Position numbers and translations under genes: made by a program. Shown here one piece after another: positions 32,766-50,506 of a DNA stretch of 51,483 bases. Numbering within the stretch: the stretch's first letter is position 1; each line of letters opens with the position of its first letter. Source of the DNA: Candidatus Pelagibacter ubique HIMB058 (GTDB taxonomy: Bacteria; Pseudomonadota; Alphaproteobacteria; Pelagibacterales; Pelagibacteraceae); assembly GCA_000419545.1 (NCBI GenBank), contig ATTF01000006.1:1-51483 (forward strand), given 5' to 3'. Below the pieces are notes generated by a model, which searched no databases, had not been told where the DNA came from, and saw nothing but the letters and a program-made list of their open reading frames with translations.

Positions 32766-33722
32766 ATGAGCAACTTAATTACAGACATAAAAAAATTACA
32801 AGATGAAACTTTAAAGAATCTGAAGAGTTCAAAGGCAATAAACACAGTTAGAGCCTATAAATCAGACTTTGAGGATTTCAGTTTATTTTGTGTTAAAAAT
32901 GGATTTAAGAGTATACCAACTGATATAAAGATAGTCTCTTTATACCTAACATATTTATCTAGCAAGGACGTTAAAATCAGCACAATAAAACGCAGGCTGG
33001 TATCGATCAGCGTTTTTCATAAAATGAAAGGCCATTATTTAGATACAAAACATCCTGTAATTATTCAAAATTTCTTAGGTATAAAAAGGAGAAAAGGAGT
33101 AAATCAAAAGGGAAAAAAACCGTTATTAATCAGTAACTTAAAACAAATAATTGATGTTATTAATCAACAAAATGAGCCTGATATTAAAAAATTACGAAAC
33201 AAGGCTTTATTGCTCCTAGGTTTTGCAGGTGGTTTTAGAAGGAACGAATTAATATCATTAAATATAGAGGATTTAGAATTTGTTTTTGAAGGGCTAAAAG
33301 TACATATAAAAAGATCGAAAACGGATCAATTTGGTGAAGGATTTACAAAAGGTATCCCCCACTTTGAAAACTATCTTTATTGTCCAGTTAAAAATTTGAA
33401 AAACTGGCTAAATATATCAAAAATTAAAAAAGGACCTATTTTTGTTAGGTTTTCAAAAGGCTCAAAAATTACAAATATAAGACTTACAGATCAATCCGTG
33501 GCATTAATAATTAAAGAATATTTAACAAAAGCTGGAATAGATAGTAAAAATTACTCAGGTCATAGTTTAAGATCTGGATTCGCTACTTCAGCTGCTGAAG
33601 CAGGAGCAGAAGAAAGAAGCATAATGGCTATGACAGGACATAAATCAACTGAGATGGTAAGAAGATATATTAAAGAAGCTAATCTATTTAAAAATAATGC
33701 GTTAAATAAAATTAAAATGTAA
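32766..33722 (+). CDS. Tyrosine recombinase / phage-type integrase
   Basis: The 318-residue protein has an N-terminal SAM-like DNA-binding domain (about 1-105) and the catalytic domain with all six key positions: R158 (GGFRRNEL), K185 (KRSKTD), H266 and R269 (GHSLRSG), H292 (TGHKS) and nucleophile Y301 (VRRYIKEA). It looks complete and active. It belongs to the broad integrase/Xer group but the gene is not in a Xer context; it stands alone beside a glycan-gene block, so it is likely the integrase of an island. It converges with the GT2 gene, overlapping by 11 bases. Confidence 0.9.
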   Translation: MSNLITDIKKLQDETLKNLKSSKAINTVRAYKSDFEDFSLFCVKNGFKSIPTDIKIVSLYLTYLSSKDVKISTIKRRLVSISVFHKMKGHYLDTKHPVIIQNFLGIKRRKGVNQKGKKPLLISNLKQIIDVINQQNEPDIKKLRNKALLLLGFAGGFRRNELISLNIEDLEFVFEGLKVHIKRSKTDQFGEGFTKGIPHFENYLYCPVKNLKNWLNISKIKKGPIFVRFSKGSKITNIRLTDQSVALIIKEYLTKAGIDSKNYSGHSLRSGFATSAAEAGAEERSIMAMTGHKSTEMVRRYIKEANLFKNNALNKIKM

Positions 33723-34548
33723 AAAAAGACCTAATTTTACATATTATTAATCCAATAATATAATTAAATGAAACCTTGGGTTCATTTAATGGCCCTTTGT
33801 ACTTACTTCTAGATTTTAAATAATGTTTCTTAAAAAATTTAGTAGTAATTCCCCATTTTTTTAAAAAAATTTTATCTCCGCGATTTAGAGTTAAAAATTT
33901 TTTTTTTCGAGTAGTAATTGATCCAAAGTGATAAACTTTAAAATCATTTAGACCTTTAAAAATTCTCACTCCCTCTTTCCATAACTTCATATTAAAATCT
34001 GGATCAGATCCTATACCTGGATTAAATTCTTCACTAAATCCACCTACTCTATCCCATAAAGATTTACTAACAAGGTGAGGCGCAAAATGACTACCTTGAT
34101 GATCAAAATAGTTTAATTCCTTGTATTTACGTAAAAAATCTTCTTCTTGAAAATCAGCAAAAGTGTTTCCAAAATTATAAGTTATATGGCCTGAAAACTT
34201 TTCAATCATAGTTCCTGATAGATAAAAATTATCATGTTTATGAAGTTTTACTTCTCTTAATAAAATTTCATCCCAAAAAGGGCAAAAATACATATCATCA
34301 TGGCTATATAATAGATATTTAGCTGTGCTTAGTTTTGAAGCTTTGTTAATTGAGGAACACAGTCCGATATTTTCATTCGAATGAGTATATTTATAACCAT
34401 TTTTAATAATAAAATCTTTAGTTCCATCTGAACCATCGTTTATATGAAAAATTATTTCATGATTGTACTTTGAGTTATTTGTAAGGCTTTTTAAGCATAA
34501 TTTAAGGTACCCTAAATTATTGAAAGTAGGAATTACTATAGAAAACAT
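33712..34548 (-). CDS. Family 2 glycosyltransferase
   Basis: The 278-residue protein has a GT-A fold: FSIVIPTFNNLGYLKLCLKSL at the N-terminus, IGLCSSINKASKLSTAKYLLYSHDDMYF carrying the DxD-like HDDM metal motif near residue 80, and GGFSEEFNPGIGSDPDFNMKLWKEG as the acceptor-side ED-type motif. No membrane anchor is evident apart from a weakly hydrophobic C-terminus. It should add a sugar to a surface polysaccharide or lipopolysaccharide. It is the last of a tightly overlapping minus-strand set and shares one base with the methyltransferase gene. Confidence 0.85.
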   Translation of the reverse strand: MFSIVIPTFNNLGYLKLCLKSLTNNSKYNHEIIFHINDGSDGTKDFIIKNGYKYTHSNENIGLCSSINKASKLSTAKYLLYSHDDMYFCPFWDEILLREVKLHKHDNFYLSGTMIEKFSGHITYNFGNTFADFQEEDFLRKYKELNYFDHQGSHFAPHLVSKSLWDRVGGFSEEFNPGIGSDPDFNMKLWKEGVRIFKGLNDFKVYHFGSITTRKKKFLTLNRGDKIFLKKWGITTKFFKKHYLKSRSKYKGPLNEPKVSFNYIIGLIICKIRSFFTF

Positions 34549-35351
34549 TAAAATCGGAAAAGCAAAATCTTTTTAAAAAAATTAAAAATATAAAGAAACA
34601 AAGTATATGATTTAAAAATTATCATATATTTAATAAAATATTGCATCTTTCTTTTATTATTTCTTTTTATTTTAGTTAAATATCTTTTATTTTCATAAGA
34701 ATTATTTATTAATAAATTGCTATTAAAATTGATTTTATCTTTTACGATAACTATCATATTATTAAAAAAAGATATGTTTCTTATTAAACCATCATATTTC
34801 GATTTAATATAAAACGGGTTGGCTATCTCCTGAAAATTCACACTATCTGATAATTTTTTAAAATAATTTACTTGTGTATTTGCATATTTTAAATCGAAAG
34901 GATTTCCTCCAAAAAAGTGATTATAACTAGTTTGAGTATCTTCAACAAAATATATTCCTTTATTAGAAAGCGCATCGAACAAAAGATTAAAAGATTTAAT
35001 TACATCAGAAGGGATATGGCTACCGTCATCTATAATAATATCAAATTTTTTATACTTATTAATTAAAAATTTGATAAATTCTTTGTCAGATTGCGAACCC
35101 TGATAAATACTTATTTTTTTTCTATTAAGTTTTCTTTTTTTTAAGTCAATTTTTTTAATATCAATTCCAATGATATTTGAATTTTTAAAATAATCTGACC
35201 AAGCTTTAATTGAAGCACCATCAGATACACCGATTTCTAGAATATTTAATTTTTTTTGTTTTAGATTTTTCAAATAAGGTTCATAAATTAGATGATAACC
35301 GTGATTATATTTATCTGATTTATGTTTTTTAAATAGTTCCTTTAATGACAT
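34548..35351 (-). CDS. SAM-dependent methyltransferase (macrocin/tylosin O-methyltransferase-like)
   Basis: The 267-residue protein has a class I methyltransferase core: LNILEIGVSDGASIKAWSDYF (SAM motif I), IIGIDIK, FDIIIDDGSHIPSDVIKSF and GIYFVEDTQTSY. This pattern resembles sugar O-methyltransferases of the MycE/macrocin group that methylate deoxysugars of natural products and glycans. Set between two glycosyltransferase genes, it most likely methylates a surface glycan residue. The last 50 residues are rich in Lys and aromatic residues and of no known role. Three bases separate it from the upstream GT gene. Confidence 0.78.
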   Translation of the reverse strand: MSLKELFKKHKSDKYNHGYHLIYEPYLKNLKQKKLNILEIGVSDGASIKAWSDYFKNSNIIGIDIKKIDLKKRKLNRKKISIYQGSQSDKEFIKFLINKYKKFDIIIDDGSHIPSDVIKSFNLLFDALSNKGIYFVEDTQTSYNHFFGGNPFDLKYANTQVNYFKKLSDSVNFQEIANPFYIKSKYDGLIRNISFFNNMIVIVKDKINFNSNLLINNSYENKRYLTKIKRNNKRKMQYFIKYMIIFKSYTLFLYIFNFFKKILLFRF

Positions 35352-35354
35352 AAA

Positions 35355-37472
35355 TTAGATTTTATTTTCCCAAAAATATTTTTTACTATAATTTTTATAG
35401 GTTTTATTTATTATAAACTCTGCAATTGTTTTAGAATTAAAATATTTATGGTATTTTAATCTTCCTTTTTTGGCTATTTTTCTTCTTAGTTTATCGTTTT
35501 TGCTAAGTTTATTAATTTTTTCAGCCAAATCTTTTAAGCTTTTATATGTAACAATTTCATTTTTGTTTAAAAAATTATTAAAACGAGTTTTTTCATCTAC
35601 TAAAACTGTCAAACCATTACCAATTATTTGAGCAAATCTATCACTGCTATAGTATTTTGCTGTTTTTCCTTGGCTTAAGTTTAAGCCCATTTTCGAATTT
35701 GAAATCTTATTAATAAAATTATCTGCCCAAATAGGCTGATTATTATTCATGCCATAAAGATCATATTTAACATTTGGTGTCATTTTCATAAGATCTTGAA
35801 TAAACGTTTCTCTTTCATCAAATTTTCCTTTTTTTAAAACACCTCTATGAACACCATGGCTCATAGCAAAAAAAACATCATTATTTAAATTTGATTTTTG
35901 GTCATTTTTTAATTTTTCAAATGACTCATCAACAGGATTAGGGAGATAATAAATCGGTTTTTCTTTATCGGTATTTATGCTTTTAGGATCGCTTGTGCAA
36001 AAATTTGCATCCATTAGGTCTAATTTATGTTTAAATCTATTCAAATTTTTCATCCATCTATGATCCATTCTATCTAGGAACCATTGACATAATTTTATGT
36101 CTGGATATGTTTTTTTGATAAATTTGATTGTTTCTCTTTTAATCAAGTCTGCATGTCCAAATATGATTAAATCAGGCAGATAATTACTTATGACTTCGAT
36201 AAATTTATTGTTAAGTCTTTTTGATCCATCAATATCACCTATATTTCTGTAATAACTAACTATATCTCTATCACTAAATTCTAAAACGCTATGTTTAAGT
36301 CTTATAAGTCCATTGTTTATTCTTTTTCCAGTATTGTAGAAAAGTCTTCCATTATGTCTTTCATTAAAATTAGTTACATGTAAAATTTTTAATTTTTTTC
36401 CATTTATTTTGTTTTGAAATCTGTTTTCAATTAATTTACTTCTGTAATCATCAATCTGTAATGTTGCGTTTTTATGCGTTAAGTAAAAGTTTGATAAAGA
36501 TAATTTTTGTAATTCTTTTCTAAAAGATTTATTATTAATTAATTTTATTATTGAGTCATAAATATTCTTTTTATTTAATTTTTGTACTATGATACCATTA
36601 GTAATTGTTTCAGGAAGACCTCCTCTATTAGTAATAATAACAGCGCAACCACAACTGGCGGACTCTAAACTTGTTCTTCCAAATGGCTCTTCCCATCTTG
36701 AACAAACCACTGATATAGAAGTTTTTTTAAAAATATTTAAAACATCTTTGTGTTCTTTAAAACCTAAGTTTGTTAGACGCTCATGGTTAAATTCTATATT
36801 TTCCCTTTCCTCGTCGCCTATTACAATTGCCTTCCAATTTTTATTCTCATTTAAAACATCAATTATTGCTGACCCAAATACATCATACCCTTTTGCTTTA
36901 TTTAGCTTTCCTACAAAAGTAATTATATTTTCTTTTTTATTTAAATTTACTTTTTGTAAGTCAGCGCTTTGTTTGATTACTATTAATTTTGGTGATTTTA
37001 TATAAATAGTATCTAATTTTGTTAAAAATCTATTTTTAGACCATTCGCTATTAAAAATTATTCTGGAACATTTATTTATTAATTCAACTCTCTCATTTAC
37101 TGATTTAGAGCCGCTCATACTTAATGGGTCATTATGAAAGTAAAGTATCTTTTTTGATTTATTATTAGGTAACAAAGAAATATAGATGGGCCTATTATGC
37201 ACCTCTATAATGTCAGAAGGTTTTTTAGACTCAAGTTTTATAAAATTATCAATATAATTTGATGTTTGACTACCTATACCTAAAATTTTCTTTTGTATTG
37301 GTATATTTATATATTTTAATTTAAATTTTTTTTTATATTCTGTATTTCCATAAACTGTTATAAATTTCTTAAATTTACTTTTTTGAGTAACAGCGTTTAA
37401 AAAAATAGAAACTGCTCCAGGATATACAGGAGAAAAATTTTCTTTATAAGGCAACAGAATTGAAATTTTCAT
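35355..37472 (-). CDS. Two-domain glycosyltransferase (GT4-like plus CgeB-like)
   Basis: The 705-residue protein joins two glycosyltransferase units. Residues 1-345 form a GT4/GT-B unit with IITFVGKLNKAKGYDVF, then SRWEEPFGRTSLESASCGCAVI with the E-x7-E pair (E262, E270). From about residue 353 (KILHVTNFNERHNG) a second unit begins, with LPDLIIFGHADLI, LCQWFLDRMDHRW, YYLPNPVDESF and a C-terminal FAQIIGNGLTVLVDE typical of CgeB-type transferases. It may add two sugars in succession to a surface glycan. Its start lies inside the GIY-YIG gene by 29 bases. Confidence 0.8.
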   Translation of the reverse strand: MKISILLPYKENFSPVYPGAVSIFLNAVTQKSKFKKFITVYGNTEYKKKFKLKYINIPIQKKILGIGSQTSNYIDNFIKLESKKPSDIIEVHNRPIYISLLPNNKSKKILYFHNDPLSMSGSKSVNERVELINKCSRIIFNSEWSKNRFLTKLDTIYIKSPKLIVIKQSADLQKVNLNKKENIITFVGKLNKAKGYDVFGSAIIDVLNENKNWKAIVIGDEERENIEFNHERLTNLGFKEHKDVLNIFKKTSISVVCSRWEEPFGRTSLESASCGCAVIITNRGGLPETITNGIIVQKLNKKNIYDSIIKLINNKSFRKELQKLSLSNFYLTHKNATLQIDDYRSKLIENRFQNKINGKKLKILHVTNFNERHNGRLFYNTGKRINNGLIRLKHSVLEFSDRDIVSYYRNIGDIDGSKRLNNKFIEVISNYLPDLIIFGHADLIKRETIKFIKKTYPDIKLCQWFLDRMDHRWMKNLNRFKHKLDLMDANFCTSDPKSINTDKEKPIYYLPNPVDESFEKLKNDQKSNLNNDVFFAMSHGVHRGVLKKGKFDERETFIQDLMKMTPNVKYDLYGMNNNQPIWADNFINKISNSKMGLNLSQGKTAKYYSSDRFAQIIGNGLTVLVDEKTRFNNFLNKNEIVTYKSLKDLAEKINKLSKNDKLRRKIAKKGRLKYHKYFNSKTIAEFIINKTYKNYSKKYFWENKI

Positions 37473-37707
37473 TTTTAATTTTATTTCTAATTGTTCTATT
37501 TTTCTTTATATAATATTCTCTTAAAATAGCTTTATTTTTTGATGTAAATTTTTCCTTATAAATTAATTTCCATTTTCTCCCCCTAGTAAATTTAGCACCT
37601 TTTCCAGTGTTATGAAGATTGATTCTATTTTTTAGGTTACTTGTATACCCAACATATGAAACAGGTTTATCGCCCTTAGATAAGAGCATATAAACATAGA
37701 AAGCCAT
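37444..37707 (-). CDS. GIY-YIG domain protein (UPF0213/YhbQ-like)
   Basis: The 87-residue protein is a single GIY-YIG domain: FYVYMLLSKGDKPVSYVGYTSNLKNRINLHNTGKGAKFTRGRKWKLIY shows the paired strands, the catalytic Arg (NR in LKNRI) and the KGAKFT segment common in small bacterial members. Some are structure-selective nucleases; others have no known role. It lies at the far edge of the glycan block from the tyrosine recombinase. Its 3' end overlaps the following glycosyltransferase gene by 29 bases in another frame. Confidence 0.85.
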   Translation of the reverse strand: MAFYVYMLLSKGDKPVSYVGYTSNLKNRINLHNTGKGAKFTRGRKWKLIYKEKFTSKNKAILREYYIKKNRTIRNKIKNENFNSVAL

Positions 37708-44160: not shown

Positions 44161-44199
44161 CTTTAAAAAAAAAGGCCTAGTGAAAATTCACTAGGCCTT
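44161..44199 (-). terminator. Strong intrinsic terminator between binding-protein and permease genes
   Basis: The arms AAGGCCTAGTGAA (44172-44184) and TTCACTAGGCCTT (44187-44199) are perfect inverted copies with a 2-base centre. Read in the minus-strand direction the hairpin is followed by nine T (44173-44165), giving a textbook intrinsic terminator. It sits 12 bases past the stop of the binding-protein gene and 22 bases before the permease ATG, so it should cut most read-through and set a high binding-protein to permease ratio. Confidence 0.9.
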
Positions 44200-45255: not shown

Positions 45256-46248
45256 TTAAATTTTTATCGTTTTTTTTGATTTCAAAGATTTATATGCAGC
45301 ATTAGCTAATTTCAATGCAATATAACCATCTTCAAAAGTTGATCTAGATTTAATTTTATTTTTATGAAGAGAGATTAATTCTTTAAGCTGAATATTGTAA
45401 GCATCATTGTAACGTTCAATAAAAAAATTTAAGAATGGTTTTTGAGAATTAGTCAGACTTGAATTAAATAACTCTGTTGCGTTTTCTTTTTTGTTTCCAG
45501 AGATTAGCATTCCTTTTTTGCCAAATAGTTCAACTCTCTGATCATAACCAAAAGAACAATGTCTTGAATTAGTGATAACGCATATTACTCCTTTTTTTGA
45601 TTTCATAGTAACTACTGCTAATTCATGATCTTTTATTTTCTTATAAAAAGGTGTGAATGATGAAGTAAATGCATGAATCTCCATAATTTCATCTTTACCT
45701 AAATACAATCTACATAAATCAAAGTCATGGATCATCATATCTCTGAAAATTCCACCCGAGGATCTTAGGTAAGATGTTGCTGGCGGGGCTGGATCCCTGC
45801 TTGTAATAATAATTTTTTCTAATTTTCCTATTTTATTTTTGTCTAAATCTTTTTTTAATGAAAAATGCCCAGGATCATATCTCCTATTAAATCCTAATTG
45901 GATTTTAGGTTTTAGTTTTTTTACTTTTTTTAATGTTTTTATAATTTTATTGATATTAAGATCTAAAGGTTTTTCACAAAAAATTGTTTTTTTTCTTTTC
46001 ATCCCTTCTTCAATAAATTTTATGTGTGTATTTGTAGGGCTAGAAATAAAAACTATATCAACTTTTTTATCGTTAAAAATTATATTATAATTTTTTTCAA
46101 TCTTACATCCGTATAGCTTTTTTGCTTTATTGCTTAACTGATCGATTTTTTCGTAAACATAAAGTAATTTTATTTCTTTATTTTTAGTAAGATTTTCAGC
46201 ATGCATTTGACCTATACGTCCAAATCCGAATAAAGCTACATTGATCAT
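45256..46248 (-). CDS. iolG: Inositol 2-dehydrogenase
   Basis: The 330-residue Gfo/Idh/MocA protein has the IolG pattern: VALFGFGRIGQMHAENL (NAD site), FCEKPLD (catalytic Lys), LGFNRRYDPGH, GGIFRDMMIHDFDLCRLYLG (catalytic Asp/His region) and NSRHCSFGYDQRVELFG. It oxidises myo-inositol to 2-keto-myo-inositol (scyllo-inosose), the first step of the pathway. It is divergent from iolE across a 54-base gap that contains a 35-bp palindrome. The transporter binding-protein gene lies downstream on the same strand after 120 bases. Confidence 0.92.
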   Translation of the reverse strand: MINVALFGFGRIGQMHAENLTKNKEIKLLYVYEKIDQLSNKAKKLYGCKIEKNYNIIFNDKKVDIVFISSPTNTHIKFIEEGMKRKKTIFCEKPLDLNINKIIKTLKKVKKLKPKIQLGFNRRYDPGHFSLKKDLDKNKIGKLEKIIITSRDPAPPATSYLRSSGGIFRDMMIHDFDLCRLYLGKDEIMEIHAFTSSFTPFYKKIKDHELAVVTMKSKKGVICVITNSRHCSFGYDQRVELFGKKGMLISGNKKENATELFNSSLTNSQKPFLNFFIERYNDAYNIQLKELISLHKNKIKSRSTFEDGYIALKLANAAYKSLKSKKTIKI

Positions 46249-46255
46249 ATTTTTT

Positions 46256-46290
46256 GTATTAAGTTGATATTTGTAATATAAACTTAATAC
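46256..46290. promoter_or_regulatory. 35-bp near-perfect palindrome between iolG and iolE
   Basis: The halves GTATTAAGTT-G-ATATT (46256-46271) and AATAT-A-AACTTAATAC (46275-46290) are inverted copies, 15 of 16 pairs matching, around the 3-base centre TGT. It covers almost the whole 54-base divergent gap, so it overlaps any promoters for both genes. It is most likely the operator of a dimeric or tetrameric repressor of the iol genes. A related half-site pair lies between the ALDH gene and iolD. Confidence 0.65.
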
Positions 46291-46302
46291 TTTATTAAAA
46301 TT

Positions 46303-47202
46303 ATGTCTATAAAATTAGGTATAGCCCCTATAGCATGGAGCAATGATGATATGCCAGAATTAGGTAGCGATACTACATTAGAGCAATGTTTATATGAAGC
46401 AAGCAAAGCTGGTTTTACTGGTATAGAGTCAGGTGGTAAATTTCCTAAAAATTCAAAAGAATTAATACCGAAACTGGAGAAAGAAAATTTACAACTTTGT
46501 TCTGGATGGTATGGAGCAACACTTTTAAAAAATACTCCAAAAGAAGAATTTGAATTAATGCGTGAACAGATGGATTTGTTCAAAGATTGTAAATCTCCAT
46601 GCATGGTATTTGCTGAGGTAACAAATTCTGTGCAAGGTGATCCGAAAACACCTTTGTCAAAAAAACCTAAACTTTCAGAAGATGAGTGGAAATTACTTAT
46701 ATCTAGGATAAATGAAATAAGTAAAATGATGATAGATGAAAATATGCCTCTCGCTTATCATCATCATATGGGAACAGTCATTGAAACAGAGGATGAAACT
46801 AGGAGATTAATAGAAAGTACTAGTGATAGCGTAAAATTATTAATTGATACTGGTCACATGTTATTTGCAGGTGGAAACTCAATTAAACTGACCGAAGATT
46901 TCATGGAAAGAATAATCCATGTTCATTGTAAAGATATTCGTAAAGGTGTTTTAGAAAAATCATTAAAAAATGATAGCACCTTCCGGCAAGCTTTTCTTGA
47001 TGGCGTTTTCACAGTTCCAGGTGATGGATGCATTGACTATAAGCCTTTCTTAACAGTTTTAAAAAATAAGAATTATGAAGGTTGGCTTGTAGTTGAAGCA
47101 GAGCAAGACCCAGCAAAGGCTAATCCATTTGAATACGCAAAAATTGGTTATAATTATTTAAGTAAAACTGCTAAAGAATGTGGGTTTAATATAATTAGTT
47201 AA
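46303..47202 (+). CDS. iolE: Inosose dehydratase
   Basis: The 299-residue xylose isomerase-like TIM barrel begins LGIAPIAWSNDDMPELGSDTTLEQCLYEASKAGFTGIESGGKFP, which is diagnostic of IolE, and has AYHHHMGTVIET, LLIDTGHMLFAGG, IIHVHCKDIRKG and VPGDGCIDYKPFL as metal and substrate residues. It dehydrates 2-keto-myo-inositol to trihydroxycyclohexanedione, the substrate of IolD. It is divergent from iolG and its stop overlaps the stop of the convergent 169-residue protein gene. Confidence 0.95.
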   Translation: MSIKLGIAPIAWSNDDMPELGSDTTLEQCLYEASKAGFTGIESGGKFPKNSKELIPKLEKENLQLCSGWYGATLLKNTPKEEFELMREQMDLFKDCKSPCMVFAEVTNSVQGDPKTPLSKKPKLSEDEWKLLISRINEISKMMIDENMPLAYHHHMGTVIETEDETRRLIESTSDSVKLLIDTGHMLFAGGNSIKLTEDFMERIIHVHCKDIRKGVLEKSLKNDSTFRQAFLDGVFTVPGDGCIDYKPFLTVLKNKNYEGWLVVEAEQDPAKANPFEYAKIGYNYLSKTAKECGFNIIS

Positions 47203-47708
47203 CGATAAGCAGACACAAGTTCATTATTTCCAGCAGCTACACACGGCGATTTAACGCAAGTGCCTATCACCCACTCAGATCCAGCTTCTGACTCAAAATT
47301 GCTTTCTGAGACAAAGATAATACCTTTATCTGTGGATTGACCGGCTTTACCTTCTGCTTGAATTCTAGGATCTTGTGATGTTTGTATTAGAGGCTTATCA
47401 ATATTGTAAGGATTATTAAGTTTTATGTTATTCAAAATATGATTAACAATTTTTGAAGATATCCAAGCTGAATTACAATTGTCACCCCATAAAGTAGTGC
47501 CTTCTTCATTTGAACTGCATTCATTAACTTGATTATTAATAAATTCTACAACGAGTTTATGGTTAGCTTTTATATCGTTAGCTTTTTGTACAACTGCCGA
47601 TCGTGTAGACGCGGTCCAAACTAACATTATAATGACATAGGCAAGTGAACTTAAAACTAAAGCTTCAAGAGGACCAAAATTTTTTAATCTTCTTCTTAAA
47701 TTAATCAT
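47199..47708 (-). CDS. Unrecognised single-pass membrane protein with four Cys
   Basis: The 169-residue protein has one N-terminal hydrophobic segment (about residues 13-33, FGPLEALVLSSLAYVIIMLVW) after the basic LRRRLKN, so the rest is probably outside the cytoplasm. It contains C64, C78, C151 and C156, which could form disulfides, and a NPYN motif near residue 100. The layout (long N-terminal helix, small Cys-containing exported domain) recalls type IV pilin-like proteins, but the Glu+5 rule is not met, so I do not assign it. The ATG overlaps the 2-hydroxyacid dehydrogenase stop by 4 bases (ATGA). Confidence 0.7.
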   Translation of the reverse strand: MINLRRRLKNFGPLEALVLSSLAYVIIMLVWTASTRSAVVQKANDIKANHKLVVEFINNQVNECSSNEEGTTLWGDNCNSAWISSKIVNHILNNIKLNNPYNIDKPLIQTSQDPRIQAEGKAGQSTDKGIIFVSESNFESEAGSEWVIGTCVKSPCVAAGNNELVSAYR

Positions 47709-48668: not shown

Positions 48669-48743
48669 TGGCGGTCCCAAGGGGAATCGAACCCCTCTTT
48701 GTTGGATGAAAACCAACTGTCCTAACCGATAGACGATGGGACC
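48669..48743 (-). tRNA. tRNA-Glu (UUC), overlapping the recJ 3' end
   Basis: Read on the minus strand: acceptor GGTCCCA/TGGGACC, D arm with TATCGGTTAGGAC, anticodon stem GTTGG/CCAAC with loop TTTTCAT (anticodon TTC), T arm AGGGGTTCGATTCCCCT, G73 and an encoded CCA at 48671-48669. The recJ reading frame runs on into the first 22 bases of this gene and stops in its D arm. Confidence 0.98.
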
Positions 48744-50506
48744 GTATTTTTGAATGTTTTAATAACAGAAATATCATCGATAATAAACTCTACATTTGAT
48801 TGCCCTTTCCATTCATTTAGGGATAATTTTCCTGCAATATTAAATAATTTAGAATTATTATTCAGAAGGTACTCGCCTAAATCACTATCAGCTACGTTAA
48901 ATGCTATAGTTTTTATGGACGATCCGTCTTTACCAACAAGAATTGATTTAACATGTCTCTCTCCTACAACTTTACCGCTTATTGTTTTCACATTCTCTAT
49001 AACAAATTTAGGCTCAGGGTTGCCTGATCCAAAAGGAGACAGCAAGGAAACTTTATTAAAAAATTCTAAATTAACTGCTGATGGAGATATTATACTATCA
49101 AAAAAAAGTGGTTTTTCCTTTGATAAGTCTTCATTGATAGTTTTAAATTTTTTAAATACAAATTTTTTAAACTGATCTATTTTTTCAACTTTTATAGAAA
49201 ATCCTCCAGCCATTTTGTGTCCTCCCCCTTTTAATAGAATATTATTTTGAGTCGCAGAAATTATTACTGATCCAATATCAAAACCTATAATAGATCTAGC
49301 TGAAGCTTTACCAGTATTTCCCTCTATTGATATTAATATAACTGGTTTATTAAATTTATCTTTTAATCTAGCAGCTACAATACCAATAATTCCTTCATGC
49401 CAATTTTTTCCACTAAGAATCAGCACAGGGTCATTAGAATAATCTATTGTTTCATTAAGGATCTTTTGCAAAAGATCTTTTTCAAGCATTTGTCTCTCTT
49501 TATTATATTGATCCAGTTCCAATGCGAGTTTGAAAGTATTTTTAGGATCCTTATTTAAAAGTAGATTAGCACCATGAGAACATTTTCCTACTCTTCCACC
49601 AGCATTAATTCTTGGACCAAGCATAAATCCTAGATGATAAATTGTTGGATTTGTTTCTATTTTACAAATATCTAATAAAGTTTTTATTCCCAAATTTTTT
49701 TTGGATTTTATAATTTTTAAACCCTGTTTTACAAAAGCTCTGTTTAATCCTTTTAAAGGAACAACATCACAAATCGTCCCTAATGAAACTAAATCAAGAC
49801 AATTAATTAAATTAGGTTCTTTTATTTTATGTTGCGAGAACCATTTTTTTTCTCGTAGTTCTCTATTTAAAGAAACTAAAAAAATATAAGCAACTCCTAC
49901 TGCGCAAAGATATTGAAGCTCAGAATTATCGTCAAAACGATTTGGGTTTATTATTGAGAAAGCATTTGGCAATTTCACTTCAGACTGATGGTGATCTAAA
50001 ACAATTACATCTATATTATTTTCTTTGGCAAAATTTATAGCTTCAAACGAAAGTGTTCCACAATCAACTGTGAATATTAACTTAACTCCTTTATCTATTA
50101 ATTGTTTAAAACTTTTAATAGATGGACCATATCCCTCCTTTTTTCGATCGGGTATGTATATTTCATAGTTTAAATTTAATTCAGATAGATAATTCCCAAG
50201 TAATGCGGTTGAGGTTGCTCCATCTACATCATAATCCCCAAAAATACCTATTTTATCTCCGTTTAATATTGTTTGAAAAGTTCTAGATGTTGCTTTTTCC
50301 ATATCAAGAAGAATATTTGGGTTAGGAAGGAAATTTTTAATTAAAGGATTTAAAAAAGAATTTATTTCTTCTTTTTTGATTTTTCTAATAGATAAAAGTT
50401 TAGAAGTAATTTCATCTAATGAGTAATTATCTTTTATAAAATTTAGATCTTCTTGATTAAATTTTTTTAAGATCCAAGATTTTCCACTTATTGAAAGTGA
50501 ATTCAT
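48722..50506 (-). CDS. recJ: Single-stranded-DNA-specific exonuclease RecJ
   Basis: The 594-residue DHH-family 5'-3' exonuclease has GIFGDYDVDGATSTALLGNYL (motif I), FTVDCGT (motif II), VIVLDHHQ (motif III, DHH) and LMAGGFSIK-type DHHA1 features near GGGHKMAGGFS. It processes single-stranded DNA in RecF-type recombination and mismatch repair. Its final codons (V-P-S-S-I-G-stop) are read from the start of the tRNA-Glu gene, so the stop TAG falls within the tRNA D arm. It overlaps glpX by 4 bases (ATGA). Confidence 0.95.
   Translation of the reverse strand: MNSLSISGKSWILKKFNQEDLNFIKDNYSLDEITSKLLSIRKIKKEEINSFLNPLIKNFLPNPNILLDMEKATSRTFQTILNGDKIGIFGDYDVDGATSTALLGNYLSELNLNYEIYIPDRKKEGYGPSIKSFKQLIDKGVKLIFTVDCGTLSFEAINFAKENNIDVIVLDHHQSEVKLPNAFSIINPNRFDDNSELQYLCAVGVAYIFLVSLNRELREKKWFSQHKIKEPNLINCLDLVSLGTICDVVPLKGLNRAFVKQGLKIIKSKKNLGIKTLLDICKIETNPTIYHLGFMLGPRINAGGRVGKCSHGANLLLNKDPKNTFKLALELDQYNKERQMLEKDLLQKILNETIDYSNDPVLILSGKNWHEGIIGIVAARLKDKFNKPVILISIEGNTGKASARSIIGFDIGSVIISATQNNILLKGGGHKMAGGFSIKVEKIDQFKKFVFKKFKTINEDLSKEKPLFFDSIISPSAVNLEFFNKVSLLSPFGSGNPEPKFVIENVKTISGKVVGERHVKSILVGKDGSSIKTIAFNVADSDLGEYLLNNNSKLFNIAGKLSLNEWKGQSNVEFIIDDISVIKTFKNTVPSSIG

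Follow-up and report, generated by a model that had tools for sequence, protein, structure and literature searches.

Sequence comparison favors a compact shared promoter over a palindromic operator between divergent inositol genes of a SAR11 bacterium

The 54-bp gap between the divergent genes iolG and iolE of Candidatus Pelagibacter ubique HIMB058 is strongly constrained, beyond what is seen at neutral sites. We think it somewhat better than an even bet (roughly 0.55) that this gap is a compact promoter region common to iolE and the iolG operon, with a core of TAATATA and with arms that have no symmetric role. A near-palindrome in the gap had been proposed as an operator; judged from aligned sequences, a compact shared promoter appears to be the better account, and the footprint across relatives weakens the case for an operator.

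Results

A 35-bp dyad in the iolG/iolE gap

The window analyzed here, a 51,483-nucleotide stretch of contig ATTF01000006.1, comes from a SAR11 genome of the Pelagibacteraceae (1.1 Mb, 98% complete). The features that bear on the dyad are as follows.

45256 to 46248, minus strand: iolG, inositol 2-dehydrogenase-like gene (open reading frame; TIGR04380, 342 bits, cut-off 355)
46249 to 46302, unstranded: 54-bp divergent gap between iolG and iolE, under strong constraint in 17 close loci and alignable to a second clade
46256 to 46290, unstranded: 35-bp near-palindrome with its axis at 46273; among the genomes seen, only this one has perfect 10-bp arms
46256 to 46265, unstranded: left arm, GTATTAAGTT, poorly conserved
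46281 to 46290, unstranded: right arm, AACTTAATAC, conserved better than the left arm; close-clade consensus G at 46287
46303 to 47202, plus strand: iolE, myo-inosose-2 dehydratase (TIGR04379, 406 bits, cut-off 290)

The iolG score lies slightly below its cut-off, and we retain the name. This gene is the first in an apparent operon that continues with genes for a substrate-binding protein, a permease, and an ATPase. The earlier note on this DNA had described the gap and its palindrome accurately. The gap is indeed 54 bases long, bounded by the starts of iolG (46248, minus strand) and iolE (46303, plus strand), and the two 10-base arms, GTATTAAGTT and AACTTAATAC, match exactly as inverted copies. 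Beyond a single mismatch (46266/46280), a further five bases pair as claimed (46267 to 46271 with 46275 to 46279), leaving a 3-base center at 46272 to 46274. The dyad thus totals 15 of 16 pairs around a 3-nt center.

Constraint on the gap is strong and lopsided

We located iolE in 31 of 101 related genomes and collected 80 further loci from named genomes, a partly overlapping set. The footprint comprises the 57 iolG/iolE loci with an alignable gap, which represent 37 distinct gaps: a close clade (17 loci, 15 distinct gaps, IolE more than 86% identical) and an outer clade (40 loci, 22 distinct gaps, IolE about 80% identical). Below about 73% IolE identity, the gap or the neighboring gene differs. 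Close kin differ from the window at 2 to 7 of the 54 gap sites, while 21 to 54% of iolE four-fold sites are changed.

The two sides of the dyad axis are constrained unequally, and the core is off-center. Mean pairwise differences per site within the close clade amount to 0.12 (left arm), 0.19 (46266 to 46273), 0.00 (46274 to 46280), and 0.06 (right arm); between clades, the corresponding values are 0.48, 0.31, 0.065, and 0.21. TAATATA (46274 to 46280) is invariant in the close clade, and the left arm is the most divergent part of the gap between clades. The earlier note had expected an operator to keep its arms wherever the two genes are conserved. Instead, the next clade keeps iolG and iolE (about 80%), yet its arms pair at only 4 to 7 of 10 positions, against 6 to 9 in close kin and 10 in the window. 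Counted over the whole dyad, 15 of 16 positions pair in the window, 9 to 14 in the remaining close clade, and 6 to 11 in the outer clade; in close kin, symmetry still peaks at 46273, with 78% paired.

Placed on an iolE tree, the deeper close-clade lineages mostly have 11 or 12 of 16 pairs (9 in one), and the window's subclade has 13 to 15 in nine of its ten distinct sequences and 10 in the tenth. Pair gains and losses in this subclade show no drive to symmetry. Across the 15 close-clade sequences, none of the 16 dyad pairs has a second complementary type, and every variable pair varies by breaking; including the outer clade raises the count to 2 of 16.

As a control, we examined an inverted repeat at 44172 to 44199 (minus strand), which lies between the binding-protein and permease genes of the iolG operon and is conserved in the same relatives. 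It resembles an intrinsic terminator (AAGGCCTAGTGAA / TTCACTAGGCCTT, followed by a T run). It is kept, with compensatory changes, across 40 distinct related sequences; 90% of its cells are paired and 6 of its 13 pairs occur with a second complementary type, indicating that the method picks up inverted repeats that are maintained. This hairpin may lower expression of the permease and ATPase relative to the binding protein, whose gene is of the inositol/rhizopine type.

Other copies of the dyad and candidate regulators

Our genome-wide statements are based on pattern and family searches, plus 300 kb of one relative. The genome contains no second copy of the dyad with up to three arm mismatches and no other 16-bp half-site with one mismatch allowed. 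An 11-mer, TATTAAGTTGA, common to the dyad and the iolD/ALDH gap was dropped as a candidate; it is missing from that gap in the relatives examined, and one-mismatch matches to the arm occur at chance level.

In line with the earlier note, Pfam and NCBIfam scans of most window ORFs turned up no regulator gene. Beyond the window, the search covered RpiR, LacI, GntR, and DeoR-HTH. The HTH_6 domain of RpiR proteins, the type to which we take the alphaproteobacterial IolR (CC1297) to belong, is found in 0 of 61 SAR11 genomes, the window's own 98% complete genome among them, and neither a LacI nor a GntR gene was found in the window's own genome; controls were positive in all cases. LacI-type and DeoR-type sugar regulators use dyad operators at catabolic promoters. 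This genome is unlike those systems in showing no LacI gene and in giving a single weak DeoR-HTH match, on contig C12. That match was rejected as a DeoR candidate, as the only Pfam models hit by the 341-aa protein concerned (L142:1210-2235) are TrmB/Crp HTH models. These matches fall near residues 262 to 295 of what may be an unusual regulator, encoded directly upstream of a membrane-transporter-like frame. None of the papers searched combined Pelagibacter, inositol (iol), and regulation.

A candidate −10 element that may be read in both directions

In the account we prefer, the functional core of the gap would be the AT-rich conserved block around 46274 to 46280, rather than the arms. RNA polymerase would read this block as overlapping −10 elements in both orientations, TAATAT on the plus strand and TATATT on the minus strand, and would start transcription at two positions 18 bp apart.

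46274 to 46280, unstranded: candidate shared −10 element, TAATATA; invariant in the close clade, 0.065 differences per site to the next clade
46268, minus strand: predicted iolG start (A on the minus strand), from the spacing rule of PMC10268837; column 100% T on the plus strand
46286, plus strand: predicted iolE start (A), from the spacing rule of PMC10268837; column 100% A

The motif TANNNTA is present at 46274 in 32 of the 37 distinct gaps, and at 46274 or 46272 in 36 of them, despite internal substitutions. The outer-clade core mostly contains plus-strand TATAAT; some members have TATTATA instead, which places TATAAT on the other strand, the variants TATAATA and TATTATA being reverse complements of each other. 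The bases at both predicted starts fit an initiating A on either strand in the window, and their columns are invariant. Gaps in the outer clade are mostly 56 to 60 bp long, and most of them carry a 2-nt insertion after the core, which makes the spacing to the plus-strand A 20 bp instead of 18. No −35 element was recognized in the gap, and a consensus promoter scan returned nothing above chance. Relative to base composition, the 24 divergent gaps of a relative show no excess of TANNNTA, so we infer the −10 assignment, both start sites, and use in two directions from conservation and spacing. The relatives keep the promoter-like core but not the symmetry, so the gap resembles an ordinary, compact promoter for both directions. 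The dyad would then be specific to this lineage and may have grown stepwise on the AT-rich core, through 11, 12, 14, and 15 of 16 pairs on the branch to the window; most likely it has no symmetric protein-binding role, and it is possibly coincidental.

Discussion

Part of the proposal that this gap is an iol operator holds up: a constrained region is common to two divergent inositol genes. The palindrome as the operator itself does not fare well, given arms that decay, lopsided conservation, and the lack of compensation in close kin. It could still be a young operator, confined to the roughly ten sampled species of the window's subclade, at which a dimeric or tetrameric regulator bound to both arms blocks both overlapping promoters. 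The dyad spans the candidate promoters of both genes, its 15 of 16 pairs within a 54-bp divergent gap have a probability of about 0.001, and nine of the ten distinct subclade sequences have 13 to 15 pairs. We nevertheless consider such an operator unlikely: the arms decay in kin that conserve the genes, compensatory changes are absent from the 15 close sequences, conservation falls on one side of the axis, and the genome offers no second copy or half-site, the TATTAAGTTGA match at the iolD/ALDH gap being missing in relatives. RpiR, LacI, and GntR genes were not found, and the half-site centers, 25 bp or about 2.4 helical turns apart, would be awkward for a single dimer. The more specific version, in which a single Pelagibacteraceae subclade has gained a young operator, laid over its shared bidirectional promoter, for an unrecognized SAR11 inositol regulator from outside the RpiR, LacI, and GntR families, seems to us distinctly improbable.

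The symmetry might instead be an accident of AT-rich DNA, with two ordinary promoters packed together and no special architecture. In simulated 54-bp gaps of matching composition, an equally good palindrome arises with P = 0.001 (0.0006 in a second estimate). The dyad is, however, the second-best inverted repeat in the 51-kb window, and 4 of 15 Markov-randomized windows contain one that is equally good. In 300 kb of a relative we counted 24 divergent gaps measuring 30 to 150 bp, none scoring above 9 versus 13 for the dyad; this density implies roughly 90 short divergent gaps per genome and, by our own estimate, about 0.05 to 0.1 such dyads per genome by chance. The dyad is unlikely for a single gap, but much less remarkable once all the divergent gaps that an AT-rich genome contains are considered. 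That pairs are lost and gained in the subclade without a drive to symmetry also suits plain chance, but conservation of the core far exceeds that of neutral sites, and the overlap of the two candidate −10 elements makes the packing unusually tight, which counts against this reading; we regard it as doubtful. An RNA hairpin, acting as a terminator or attenuator in one transcript, would explain an inverted repeat with a 3-nt center and is very improbable. The gap contains no terminator-like site and no known RNA family, the stem is almost entirely A-T, and close kin show no compensatory changes, unlike the hairpin at 44172 to 44199. Moreover, with both candidate starts placed within the dyad, no single RNA would be expected to contain the two arms.

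The shared-promoter reading has a close parallel in the bidirectional promoters of bacteria, which use a shared, pseudo-symmetric −10 element by the account that PMC10268837 and PMC12825309 give of Warman et al. 2021. Divergent starts 7 to 25 bp apart define the class; 18 bp is the commonest layout (PMC10268837; PMC12825309). The SAR11 gap resembles them in its TANNNTA core, its reciprocal −11A/−7T, its predicted A starts 18 bp apart, and its position between two divergent genes. It differs in that its starts are predictions, the motif is unenriched in the divergent gaps tested, and the plus-strand spacing is 2 bp longer in most of the outer clade. The resemblance to the operator of Caulobacter IolR (CC1297), GGAA-N6-TTCC, which also occurs in other alphaproteobacteria (PMC2597717), is looser. 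In each case a palindrome sits in the promoters of idh/iol genes and of inositol transporter genes, but the dyad is 35 rather than 14 bp long and differs in sequence and composition, GGAA-N6-TTCC has three matches in the window and none in the iol gaps, and HTH_6 is missing from the 61 SAR11 genomes.

As it stands, this is an ordinary finding that matters little: a streamlined genome with a compact divergent promoter. If the shared −10 element is real, it would be a conserved case in which one short element drives both a catabolic gene and the operon for an inositol transporter. Searches in this lineage turned up none of the usual inositol regulators, and such an element would suggest that the pathway may operate without transcriptional control of its own.

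Surroundings of the inositol genes

The distribution of iolE is patchy: the gene is present in 31 of 61 genomes of the same genus (the window's own counted) and in 0 of 40 of the same order, many of these genomes being incomplete. Tail to tail with iolE, and overlapping it by 4 bp, is a 169-aa reading frame (47199 to 47708) with no match in Pfam or NCBIfam; its C-terminal part is recognizable at the equivalent place in many relatives. Adjoining the inositol genes, 32766 to 37707 encodes a phage-type integrase, a glycosyltransferase, and a GIY-YIG nuclease about 3 kb past a tRNA gene, and is possibly a genomic island. On the minus strand, a tRNA gene at 48672 to 48743 shares 22 bp with the 3′ end of a 594-aa frame (48722 to 50506), which looks RecJ-like by eye.
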